NCBI GenBank assembly: GCA_021234155.1
Contig: JAJEKV010000057.1
Span: 4,557,821-4,621,820 of the forward strand
DNA from: Isoetes taiwanensis
Lineage: Eukaryota; Streptophyta; Lycopodiopsida; Isoetales; Isoetaceae
Reading direction: 5' to 3'
DNA length: 64,000 nucleotides
Position 1 is the first letter of the stretch; each line of letters begins with the position of its first letter. Both the position numbers and the translations under genes were made by a program. Below are positions 47,037 to 56,658 of this stretch, piece after piece. A model generated the notes under the pieces. That model was not told the DNA's origin. It saw only the letters and a program-made list of their open reading frames with translations, and ran no database searches.

Positions 47037-47961
47037 TATATATATATACATATATACATATATATCCAAAAGGCTGGCTTAGTTCATGAAATAATTGCCT
47101 GGTATGGTTTTTATACTCTCTTTAAACCAACCCTAACATAAAAGCACACTACTTTCTCTAGCACAAAAATATGTGTTACATTAGCTAATGCAAACGATGG
47201 ACATTTGATACTAACTTCAAGGAGGCCCGAAAAAAGAATTTTTCCTTATGCAGATGTAGTAAGCATTGGTCAGCCAAGACACTATAAAAGCATGAGCCAC
47301 GTAGCCTGCATAGATGCTGACTGGAACCCTAAGGATGGGCAACTCCTATATCATGTTAAAATGTTAAGATAATTATTTTAGTTGGTATCTTTACTTACAA
47401 GGACGTTAAAATAAAACCACATTGGAGGTTTGAAAGAATATTTGCTTTAAGCATAGGTGTTGACCTGCATGCCTTTAATAAAATATAAAACCGTAATTGG
47501 TTTTTAAGGCTACCTAACACCCATTGACGGGAATACGGGTATATCTTACGGATTTGGCAGGAAAATCAAACCTAATACGTGGGGGTGTGATATGCTAAGC
47601 TTAAGTTTTTTAGGGTTTATATCTGAAGAAGGCGGAGACATACAGTGGCATAGACTGAAGCCTAGGAAAAGGCTTCAAAAGATTGAAATGATGGCACGCC
47701 TCCAAATTGTACTGAAGGCCGAAAATCGATCTGCATATTCGTGTGATTTGATTCATCTTCCGTTTCATATCTTTGAAGGGCTGGGCAAGCTAGAAACAGG
47801 TACGTAACCTAATTCAGGAAAAATGGGGACGTGATATAATTTTAGGCAGATAAATCTGACAGGATCAGAAGGACGAAACCTTATATTCTGATATTAGGGT
47901 TCATGAACTTGCACTCAGTATCCTCCAAAGCGTATCAGCGCCAACACTCTGTTTTGGCACA

Positions 47962-48285
47962 ATGCCAAGGCCTGAAGGATCATGTAATATCATGCCAACA
48001 AAGGCTGATATTATTGCTATGCTTAAGGAGAAAGGAATTGATTGCAAAAAAGATGGCGTAGCCATTAAAAAAGCTGTGCTGGAGGAGATGGCAAAGAAGG
48101 CTGGGATTGATATATTCGCCAAGAGGCATAATCCAAGCAAACGTCCTGGATCAAGCATAGAGGCCTGCCTAGCAGCGGTTGCACACCGAGCTGAAAAAGT
48201 GGCAAACATGGAAGCTGGAAGCAGCATCAACTTATCTGGGGATGGAGACGATTTCTTGGATGAAGAGGCGATGCCATTGAATCAG
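47962..48285 (+). CDS. SAP-like protein exon (upstream repeat)
   Basis: MPRPEGSCNIMPTKADIIAM, then LKEKGIDCKKDGVAIKKAVL and EEMAKKAGIDIFAKRHNPSK: RP-containing basic start and two SAP-like helix pairs. An acidic end (GDGDDFLDEEAMPLNQ) runs into a CAG/GTTTTG donor at 48285, as in unit C. About 108 codons, open in this copy. Domain assignment is by pattern and by comparison among the copies in the window. Likely acts with the element's own nucleic acid or its DNA target; inferred. Confidence 0.55.
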
Positions 48286-48690
48286 GTTTTGGTTTTGATC
48301 TGTGAAAAACACATTAGTCAATAGATAGTAATGTCTAGTAGGTTAGTTGGGCGTCATGTAGAACTGCATATGGGGTTCTGAGATTGAGAGATAACAAGAA
48401 GGGAACACATAATAAATTCATATTAGTGATCACAAAAACATGAAGTTTGAAAGAAGTCACGGATCATACTATAGCAGGAAAGTTTTCTATCATCTGCACA
48501 AGGTATTATGGTGTAATAAAATTTTGAAACAGCAAAATGGATCGACTATGGGAGTTATCATCATCATCTATGGTAACAAAAACAGGAAGTGCTCTGAAAC
48601 CTTTTTACTTGAAACTAGATTTCTTTCATGACTGGTTCTGTCCATACAGTCAAGTAAAAAATGTATTTGCAGCAGATCTATCATGTTGTT

Positions 48691-48800
48691 TAGGTTGAAG
48701 GGCGTTAAGCCAGTGGACCCTATTGCTTACCTGCTAATCCCTTCCAGCTTTACCCATATTTTGGCTAATGTTTGGTTGTTTGGATTGCGGTAAACCGTGT
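48691..48800 (+). promoter_or_regulatory. Conserved segment at the 3' end of the element intron (copy F)
   Basis: GGC-GTTAA-GCC hairpin, GCTTACCTGCTAATCCC, TTTACCC, GGCTAATG, then the acceptor region. Same order as the copies at 34352, 39269, 55683 and 60740. Confidence 0.65.
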
Positions 48801-49048
48801 TCTACTCTACCTACTCTAATGTTTTTGGAAGCATGAAGCATTCAAGGGAATGCATAATCAGCAAAGAAAAATGGTTCAAATATGTCATATGTAGAAAAAA
48901 GGATGCTAGATGTGAAGATCAGAAAGTTTTGTCCAAGATATACAGGTTCTATCTCTTCCCTGATTTCAAATGTAACAAGTGCGAAATCGAGCAAAGGGCA
49001 AAGGAAATTGAACAGGAATTTCTTGCTAAGATAGCAGATGATATCTGA
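48800..49048 (+). CDS. Cysteine exon (upstream repeat)
   Basis: FYSTYSNVFGSMKHSRECII, then KWFKYVICRKKDARC, ending FKCNKCEIEQRAKEIEQEFL. Two cysteine clusters (one C-x-x-C clear at the end; the first is C-x-x-C in unit A) suggest a small zinc-ribbon, followed by an acidic-basic helix. Follows the conserved intron segment. Confidence 0.5.
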   Translation, partial: FYSTYSNVFGSMKHSRECIISKEKWFKYVICRKKDARCEDQKVLSKIYRFYLFPDFKCNKCEIEQRAKEIEQEFLAKIADDI

Positions 49049-49567
49049 ACAAGTGCAGTAGCATTTCTTCAAAAATTTAATAGTTTATGTCCTATATTTA
49101 CATTTTTAAGTTTGATACATTCTAAAATTATCTGACATATATGCGGGAATGCTGGTTACCTTACTATGTTAAAAATACAAAAAAAATGGAAAAAGAATTT
49201 TGAAAATCATGCTCAAGTTTGTTCTAAGTCATAGTTCTGGAATTTAAGGTTCTGCTTCAGTTATTAAAGAGGTTCTCACGGTTACTATAGGACTCAAGGA
49301 ACTAGAAACTTAATCTTATAAAACTTAAAGAATAGGAGTCGTTTTACAAGAACAATAAAAAATCCTACTTGTACTAAATGGCTAAAACTTATTGAAAGGC
49401 GCACATAGGTTCATACACACATTCAGAAAACATACTACTAAATGGATAAGCTGAGGAATAAAAAATATGATATGGGGATTTCCGTAGGACATAGCAAGGA
49501 TTACCTTGAACATTTGCTGGTGTTTATCATGTTTTTTGAATTTCTTAGTACTATTTGTATAGTGTCT

Positions 49568-49680
49568 CCCAAGGTCTATCTCCTCTCTAAATGGGGAGCT
49601 GATAAGTCTAGGCATGGCAGGAGATCCTGTACATGGCTAGATGTCTGGATCTTGGGAACAGGATCTGGACCTGTATATAT
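49568..49680 (+). ncRNA. Terminal structured RNA (copy F)
   Basis: CCCAAGGTC (49568-49576) pairs with GATCTTGGG (49648-49656), 9 bp with one G-U. Inside: CTCC/GGAG hairpin, CTGATAAGTC, a long hairpin TCTAG..GCAGGA / TCCTGT..CTAGA, and ATGTCTG. Three-way layout as in a type III hammerhead ribozyme with GTC at the expected cleavage position, but the GAAA of the catalytic core is absent. Confidence 0.55.
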
Positions 49681-54951: not shown

Positions 54952-55277
54952 ATGCCAAGGCCTGAAGGATCATGTAATATCATGCCAACAAAGGCTGATA
55001 TTATTGCTATGCTTAAGGAGAAAGGAATTGATTGCAAAAAAGATGGCGTAGCCATTAAAAAAGCTGTGCTGGAGGAGATGGCAAAGAAGGCTGGGATTGA
55101 TATATTCGCCAAGAGGCATAATCCAAGCAAAACGCCCCGATCAAGCATTGAGGCCTGCCTTAGCAGCCGGTTGCACACCGAAATGAAAAAGTGGCAAACA
55201 TGGAAGCCGGAAGCAAAGATCAACTTATCCGAGATGGAGACGATTTCTTTGATGAAGAGGCGATGCCATTGAATCAG
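54952..55277 (+). pseudogene. SAP-like exon (downstream repeat)
   Basis: Same start (MPRPEGSCNIMPTKADIIAM) and same donor context (AATCAG/GTTTTG) as the upstream copy. The SAP halves are intact; the later part is broken. Element fossil. Confidence 0.55.
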
Positions 55278-55682
55278 GTTTTGGTTTTGATCTGTGAAAA
55301 ACACATTAGTCAATAGGTAGTAATGTCTAGTAGGTTAGTTTGGCGTCATGTAGAACTGCATATGGGGTTCTGAGATTGAGAGATAACAAGAATGGAACAC
55401 ATAATAAATTCATATTAGTGATTACAGTAACATGAGGTTTGAAAGAAGTCACGGATCATACTATAGCAGGAAAGTTTTCTATCATCTGCACAAGGTATTA
55501 TGGTGTAGTAAAATTTTGAAACAGCAAAATGGATCGACTATGGGAGTTATCATCATCATCTATGGTAACAAAAACAGGAAGTGCTCTGAAACCTTTTTAC
55601 TTGAAACTAGATTTCTTTCATGACTGGTTCTGTCTATACAGTCAAGTAAAAAATGTATTTGCAGCAGATCTATCATGTTGTT

Positions 55683-55792
55683 TAGGTTGAAGGGCGTTAA
55701 GCCAGTGGACCCTATAGCTTACCTGCTAATCCCTTCCAGCTTTACCCATATTTTGGCTAATGTTTGGTTGTTTGGATTGCAGGTAACCAGGT
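55683..55792 (+). promoter_or_regulatory. Conserved segment over the 3' splice site (copy G)
   Basis: The clearest copy: GGC-GTTAA-GCC hairpin, GCTTACCTGCTAATCCC, TTTACCC, branch-like GGCTAATG, TTGCAG/GTAACC. TTACCTGC and GCAGGTAA form an 8-bp stem that includes the acceptor AG (55781-55782). Confidence 0.7.
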
Positions 55793-56040
55793 TCTACTCT
55801 ACCTACTCTAATGTTTTTGGAAGCATGAAGCATTCAAGGGAATGCATAATCAGCAAAGAAAAATGGTTCAAATATGTCATATGTAGAAAGAAGGATGCTA
55901 GATGTGAAGATCAGAAAGTTTTGTCCAAGATATACAGGTTCTATCTCTTCCCTGATTTCAAATGTAACAAGTGCGAAATCGAGCAAAGGGCAAAGGAAAT
56001 TGAACAGGAGTTTCTTGCTAAGATAGCAGAAGATATCTGA
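55783..56040 (+). CDS. Cysteine exon (downstream repeat)
   Basis: Opens VTRFYSTYSNVFGSMKHSRE right after the acceptor and continues to EFLAKIAEDI and a stop at 56040, 85 codons. KCNKCEIEQ near the end is a C-x-x-C knuckle. Same protein as at 48800 with two or so substitutions. Probably the C-terminal exon of the SAP protein; the joint product is inferred from splice signals shared by the copies. Confidence 0.5.
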   Translation, partial: VTRFYSTYSNVFGSMKHSRECIISKEKWFKYVICRKKDARCEDQKVLSKIYRFYLFPDFKCNKCEIEQRAKEIEQEFLAKIAEDI

Positions 56041-56558
56041 ACAAGTGCAGTAGCATTTCTTCAAAAATTTAATAGTTTATGTCCTATATTTACATTTTTA
56101 AGTCTGATACATTCTAAAATTATCTGACATATATGCGGGAATGCTGGTTACCTTACTATGTTAAAAATACAAAAAAAATGGAAAAAGAATTTTGAAAATC
56201 ATGCTCAAGTTTGTTCTAAGTCATAGTTCTGGAATTTAAGGTTCTGCTTCAGTTATTAAAGAGGTTCTCACGGTTACTATAGGACTCAAGGAACTAGAAA
56301 CTTAATCTTATAAAACTTAAAGAATAGGAGTCGTTTTACAAGAACAATAAAAAATCCTACTTGTACTAAATGGCTAAAACTTATTGAAAGGCGCACATAG
56401 GTTCATACACACATTCAGAAAACATACTACTAAATGGATAAGCCGAGGAATAAAAAATATGATATGGGGATTTCAGAGGACATAGCAAGGATTACCTTGA
56501 ACATTTGGTTGGTGTTTATCATGTTTTTGAATTTCTTAGTACTATTTGTATAGTGTCT

Positions 56559-56658
56559 CCCAAGGTTTATCTCCTCTCTAAATGGGGAGCCGATAAGTCT
56601 AGGCATGGCGGAGATCCCGTACATGGCTAGATGTCCGATCTTGGGAACAGATCTGGAC
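56559..56658 (+). ncRNA. Terminal structured RNA (copy G)
   Basis: CCCAAGGTT (56559-56567) pairs with GATCTTGGG (56637-56645). Inner hairpins are as in copy F, with GCGGA..TCCCGT in place of GCAGGA..TCCTGT. Ends TCTGGAC at the TA run. Confidence 0.55.

Follow-up and report, generated by a model that had tools for sequence, protein, structure and literature searches.

Athena and Coprina are named groups of Penelope-like elements (PLEs) that are deficient in endonuclease (EN). Passages of PMC9033089 list the lycophyte Selaginella moellendorffii and conifers as hosts of such EN(-)PLEs, and passages of PMC3846280 describe EN-deficient PLEs as priming from exposed chromosome termini. Here we examined a 64 kb stretch of contig JAJEKV010000057.1 from Isoetes taiwanensis (the window, meaning this whole stretch), in which sequence analysis confirmed one ~9.6 kb Penelope-like element with the order 5' pseudo-long terminal repeat (pLTR), open reading frame 1 (ORF1), reverse transcriptase (RT), 3' pLTR. 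Like Athena, Coprina and the Selaginella/conifer EN(-)PLEs, it has a probable PLE-type RT, and no GIY-YIG domain was found in its proteins. It differs from them in that the ends read here lie in (TA)n inside contigs, not at chromosome termini, and in that its pLTR has a SAP-like exon. The explanation that we favour, with moderate confidence, is a PLE family without recognisable endonuclease that would start reverse transcription internally by priming on UAUAUA, build its pLTRs through a circle or a template jump, and use exon 1 of the pLTR as a shared start exon.

Other described systems share parts of this arrangement. The Anolis element PAc, as presented in sections of PMC11167929, is alike in having partial-tandem pLTRs, an RNA fold where pLTR and ORF meet and a preference for AT-rich targets, and also in starting reverse transcription internally at template-target homology, as we propose for the Isoetes element. 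The bdelloid Penelope elements, in the account given in parts of PMC3846280, likewise have an ORF starting within the pLTR, and they retain introns. Retrozymes and hammerhead-bearing PLEs are alike in the repeats around the unit and in a possible circular RNA template (PMC7761336, in part), whereas the Isoetes element is protein-coding, has no hammerhead that we found, and its circularity is what we infer. Compared with canonical Penelope/Poseidon, it has no GIY-YIG found, and another RNA fold replaces the hammerhead, of which none was found. Its pLTRs are also long, ~2.65 kb against 218 bp in Pen2a_Av. What is new beyond an initial annotation of the window is the (TA)n 3' ends, a junction fold containing UAUAUA, a second RNA motif (S) and a phase match between exon 1 and ORF1.

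The window pLTRs are direct repeats with 96.8% identity across a 2654-nt alignment and a spacing of 6990-6999 nt. The 5' pLTR (47037-49680; all element features lie on the + strand) runs from a TA-rich start, S, through a TATATA end, and the 3' pLTR (54036-56658) starts inside a TA-rich tract at 54024-54047. Between them lie ORF1 (49888-51520) and the RT (51696-53857), whose frames are broken in the window and reach ~540 aa in an intact relative and ~720 aa in intact relatives, respectively. The copy is decayed, with frame changes in RT and ORF1 near 51.1, 51.85 and 52.69 kb and an in-frame stop at 53225. Differences between the two pLTRs are clumped at 47700-47960 and 48130-48260, and may be assembly or polishing noise.

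We searched the genome (1,658,258,908 bases in 1110 contigs) for relatives. The same order was found in the window and in four further copies (L039-L046; n=5), bearing out the Penelope-like layout with pLTRs that the initial annotation had proposed. Repeats in the four fetched copies are ~2.5-2.6 kb long and 94.3-98.6% identical within an element; the ORF1 frame is intact at 544 aa in one of the four, and RT frames of 719-725 aa are present in three. The RT search, represented by the best 150 of 2578 candidates, returned many open frames of 700-750 aa. Forty matches to the pLTR 3' end occur mostly as pairs ~7 kb apart with a single triple on C1079, and on this spacing we rejected a long tandem array. 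Two pairs are only ~3.85 kb apart (G000:C1025:16686774/16690626 and C1019:10558983/10562830), and perhaps mark a shorter non-autonomous relative.

We place the element among the PLEs, as a probable member, on the layout of its pLTRs, its introns, the structure of its ends and motifs of its RT that we take to be PLE-like. The RT ORFs (51880-53857) contain GIPMGFPCSPA and YMDD. The RT frames stop shortly past the last conserved RT block, and their ATG is conserved only among close relatives. Pfam searches for GIY-YIG, the domain of EN(+) PLEs, gave no match in 10 window ORFs (E<=1) or in 7 family proteins (E<=5), in agreement with the earlier description of an RT without a recognised endonuclease. 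Two further PLE traits are seen: pLTRs derived from partial tandem units, in the pairs ~7 kb apart and the three in a row on C1079, and introns retained in genomic copies, as judged from a conserved donor and acceptors in the sequence alone. Hammerhead searches were negative: Rfam gave no match in window positions 45000-58000 (E<=5) or in the intact relative L043 (E<=2), and a CTGATGA..GAAA search came back empty. Because of these results, and because the CUGA stretch sits in a covarying helix, we rejected a hammerhead as the identity of the RNA at the junction. Sequence searches of exon 1, exon 2 and ORF1 against solved structures returned nothing meaningful.

The outer 3' ends of the copies point to a defined target. 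Thirteen of 14 enter (TA)n (12 exon-1 loci and c1025), and one (L048) is truncated. Among 30 exon-1 loci, the outer end lies in (TA)n in 12, an inner end reading TATATATTCxG is found in 13, L056 has a variant inner end, and L063-L065 show no end inside the fetched stretch. TA tracts at ends range from ~18 to >150 nt. For comparison, the 64 kb window holds ten TA tracts of at least 12 nt, 342 nt in total and some of them at the element itself, and in eight unrelated Gypsy loci (27,849 nt) there is no such tract. None of the 14 outer 3' ends, read by eye, shows a telomeric-repeat or contig-end junction; no genome-wide telomere search was made. The TA borders described initially thus stand at the 3' side, whereas at its 5' end in the window the element opens with a short TA-rich stretch that belongs to it. 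More generally, 5' ends start in the element's own TA-rich sequence, and long outside TA tracts are found in some loci only. The window insertion sits at the TA centre of a palindromic repeat with arms of 79-80% identity: the left arm (44444-45241; aligned pieces 44444-44904 and 45168-45241) matches 57121-57406 and 56813-56889 in inverted orientation, the right arm covers 56813-57406, and the target (TA)n tract is found as a left side (45244-45317) and a right side (56659-56812). The short-unit arms of the palindrome (AGAATGTTCTAG and GATTCCCTTAGATTC) are a repeat in their own right.

A structured RNA, the E motif, spans the junction of pLTR and internal region (49550-49721). Its parts, as seen in 13 sequences, are a closing helix of 4 bp, a pair of hairpins, the 8-nt loop UAUAUAUU carried by a weak stem of 3 bp, and one more hairpin after these; the proposed UAUAUA template lies at 49674-49679. 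Thirteen of its 34 pairs change on both sides, and covariation is 0.324 compared with 0.203 in shuffled alignments (0/500 as high). A model of the motif recovered L077, a copy left out of its building, at E 1.3e-4. Likewise, the S motif (53921-54020), immediately 5' of the 3' pLTR, shows changes on both sides in 9 of 23 pairs and a covariation of 0.239 against 0.161 shuffled (0/500 as high; 27 sequences), and the genome has 324 occurrences of its core word versus 7 of a reversed control. No curated Rfam family reached its gathering score with either motif. At the outer 3' end the second half of E is missing. E is completed only by what follows the inner pLTR end, and S only by what precedes the inner pLTR start, so that the two motifs are whole only when a unit is joined to itself. 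These features suggest that the UAUAUA of the E motif accounts for the TA preference more directly than the SAP-like protein would. A conservation profile also shows a short conserved island at ~49137-49200, between exon 2 and the E motif of the 5' pLTR.

Inside the 5' pLTR, exon 1 (47962-48285) encodes the RPEGS motif and two SAP-like helices and terminates in PLNQ followed by GT, and exon 2 (48790-49048) encodes KHSxxC...CxxC and then a stop. Their counterparts in the 3' pLTR are at 54952-55280 and 55783-56040. The exon-1 consensus is M[TP]RPEGSxNxxPTKADIIxxLKEKGI...PLNQ. A GT donor stands behind PLNQ in all 28 loci where PLNQ was found, and the exon-2 acceptor NAG/GTAACC is present in 27 of 30 loci. 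That each pLTR holds a two-exon gene, as initially annotated, is upheld as a family-wide segment, but both window versions are damaged: the 5' copy (L047) has an altered acceptor without NAG/GTAACC, and the 3' copy, which retains CAG followed by GTAACC, has a frameshifted exon 1. The annotated cysteine knuckle corresponds to H10, C14, C54 and C57 of exon 2, which are invariant in 12 aligned sequences of the 22 found.

We examined how closely this segment follows the RT. On the lists used, the best 150 of 2578 RT candidates and the best 150 of 371 exon-1 candidates, an exon-1 match lies within 9 kb on the same strand for 40 of 42 RT hits of at least 60% identity (window included), and on both sides for 29. 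On this survey of copies we rejected a chance capture of the SAP-like segment, as the initial annotation had expected. For exon 1 the dN/dS ratio ranges over 0.04-0.16 (13 of 15 pairs evaluable) and for exon 2 over 0.08-0.30 (14 of 15 evaluable), values indicating that both exons are under purifying selection. Distances between RTs correlate with those between exon 1 sequences in 12 copies (Mantel r 0.846, 0/9999 permutations as high), indicating that the pLTR-encoded segment co-diverges with the RT.

The nature of the encoded protein is less plain. None of 17 exon-1 sequences matched Pfam SAP at E<=1, and the SAP-like helices of the initial annotation find their support elsewhere: an exon-1-homologous ORF at 46223 matches Pfam SAP weakly (E 0.019) and exon 1 with an hhalign probability of 96.5, and a predicted structure model of exon 1 lends the SAP label weak structural support (VIA-align, 168 chains compared). 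The AT-hook label is a motif resemblance, the RPEGSxN motif being one that we take to resemble GRPxGSxNK hooks. A SAP-like fold binds and does not cut, and therefore cannot stand in for GIY-YIG as a nuclease. A literature search joining Penelope-like elements with the SAP domain found no paper, and the word 'Penelope' is not present in the main text, the part consulted, of the Isoetes taiwanensis genome paper (PMC8566536).

The ORF1 frame opens directly behind TAG/GA in all five copies, downstream of CTAAT and a pyrimidine-rich stretch, and in L077 it opens behind TATAG/GA, downstream of CTGAC. Among the 6 aligned ORF1 rows, 4 of which are partial, no Met column is invariant. Furthermore, phase 0 applies to the exon-1 donor and to both acceptors, those of exon 2 and of ORF1. 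With an in-phase acceptor and no conserved start codon in ORF1, the simplest reading is two splice forms with one start exon. Exon 1 is thus probably a start exon common to a short protein and ORF1 and less likely an accessory gene of its own; of the accessory DNA-binding protein in the initial annotation, a DNA-binding-like pLTR segment remains, more likely as an exon shared with ORF1.

Together these features suggest the following course. The element RNA would present the RT with UAUAUA, placed in a loop of the E fold, and a broken or nicked (TA)n would give a TA-ended 3' primer. Expanded TA repeats are cut by MUS81 under stress, as stated in parts of PMC10707325, and in some copies the (TA)n lies at the centre of a palindromic repeat, which could be extruded and then cleaved by enzymes of the host. 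UAUAUA is the point where copies end and (TA)n is the target; we therefore propose an initiation step of the Anolis type, in which reverse transcription reportedly begins within the template, at the site that matches the cleaved DNA (PMC11167929, in part), with broken TA tracts as primers. The TA-ended primer would pair with UAUAUA, reverse transcription would begin inside the RNA, and copying upstream would finish at the TA-rich start S. If the template were a one-unit circle, or if the RT jumped from one RNA to another, a copy that runs from E around to S would read S-E-S-E, ~1.38 units long and with two pLTRs. Exon 1, with RPEGS and the SAP-like helices, would supply the start codon and be joined to exon 2 or to ORF1; on ORF1 it would form a DNA-binding-like N-terminus, and this may keep the complex bound to AT-rich DNA.

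A number of observations weigh against this explanation. The RT sequence matched no solved structure in sequence searches against the PDB, its predicted model is poor (pLDDT 46), and an endonuclease may be supplied in trans. We consider it very improbable that the RT belongs to another class and is merely Penelope-like in look. The intact relative L043 does score under the Pfam cut-off for RVT_1 (E 3.6e-5, 24 bits, cut-off 29.6), but partial-tandem pLTRs, retained introns and an end at template-target homology jointly fit PLEs. As to the target, CTTG(TA) is found in 5 of 13 5' loci and (TA)CAAG in 3 of 13 3' ends, three of the latter 13 leaving the locus inside the tract, and palindromic targets are therefore not demonstrably general. 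In the E motif, the measure of further pair types is weaker, with 11/500 shuffles as high. The TA ends might also arise with no choice by protein or RNA, if the RT takes any break and (TA)n is fragile or lengthened by slippage. The wide range of end tract lengths and the report that expanding TA dinucleotide repeats are sites of replication stress and MUS81 cutting (PMC10707325, in part) speak for such an origin, which we nevertheless hold to be doubtful: the element's TATATA is conserved where copies end, inside a covarying fold.

The copying step is where an alternative comes closest. Transcripts with two pLTRs could run from S past the second E, the pLTRs being inherited by linear copying without a circle or jump. 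We give this simple scheme a real if lesser chance. It agrees with the window copy and C1032, in which the two pLTRs are not sisters, whereas in 7 of 9 elements the two pLTRs are each other's sisters, and complete E and S co-occur only in a one-unit circle or tandem. Two of the seven sister cases, C930 and C1061, have no close relative for comparison; with the two non-sister pairs, this leaves copying from one template unproved. Of the four fetched copies, only c963 has an intact exon 1 in both pLTRs, and exon 1 went undetected near 12 of 27 RT hits of 54-59% identity (found near 15) and near 76 of 81 below 54% (found near 5). Limits of detection account for part of this fall, because L077, the sole copy below 54% that was read, holds a diverged exon 1 likewise ending in PLNQ followed by GT. 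Both splice forms, exon 1-exon 2 and exon 1-ORF1, are ones we infer from sequence. The pLTR segment could instead be a separate accessory gene, of exon 1 and exon 2 only, that targets AT-rich DNA, with ORF1 and RT starting elsewhere. Exon 2 has its own conserved acceptor and stop codon and is under purifying selection, and a solo pLTR, L068 (G000:C907:39751126), has its exon-1 frame intact and is flanked by TA tracts of 151 and 116 nt. Such a gene nonetheless seems unlikely to us, since it leaves unexplained both the missing conserved start codon of ORF1 and its in-phase acceptor, and the junction RNA motif can by itself account for the TA preference. We are also rather sceptical of a more specific scheme, in which a nuclease-less element acts in a telomerase-like manner on TA-repeat breaks, with UAUAUAUU as its template loop, host-cut extruded TA tracts as primers and pLTRs made by rolling circle, and in which the RPEGS/SAP-like exon, alternatively spliced to ORF1 or to a His/Cys protein, holds the complex on AT-rich DNA.

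The window contains further pieces of related sequence. A probable solo pLTR of a diverged family, 'B', lies at 45318-47036 (+) and has an exon-1-like ORF, GRPEGSINKGQTRAKL, at 46262-46480, which includes GRPEGSINK. A second, partial piece at 60100-61637 terminates at a TA tract; its exon-1-like ORF is broken, and it has an exon-2-like acceptor, CAG/GTAACCGG. Each of the two pieces adjoins a TA tract, and they are probably pLTRs of that diverged family. In an older pLTR remnant (34473-35400), positions 34473-34706 correspond to exon 2 (44% identity), and the E motif is matched twice, at 35077-35242 and at 35249-35400.

The family bears on two open questions, how endonuclease-less retroelements find 3' ends off telomeres and how pseudo-LTRs arise. 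A protein-coding exon is retained in its pseudo-LTRs and is thereby carried twice per insertion. The family has many copies that look intact, together with a defined target, a template loop that is conserved and, in S, another RNA motif, and offers a setting in which these questions are testable in one plant.

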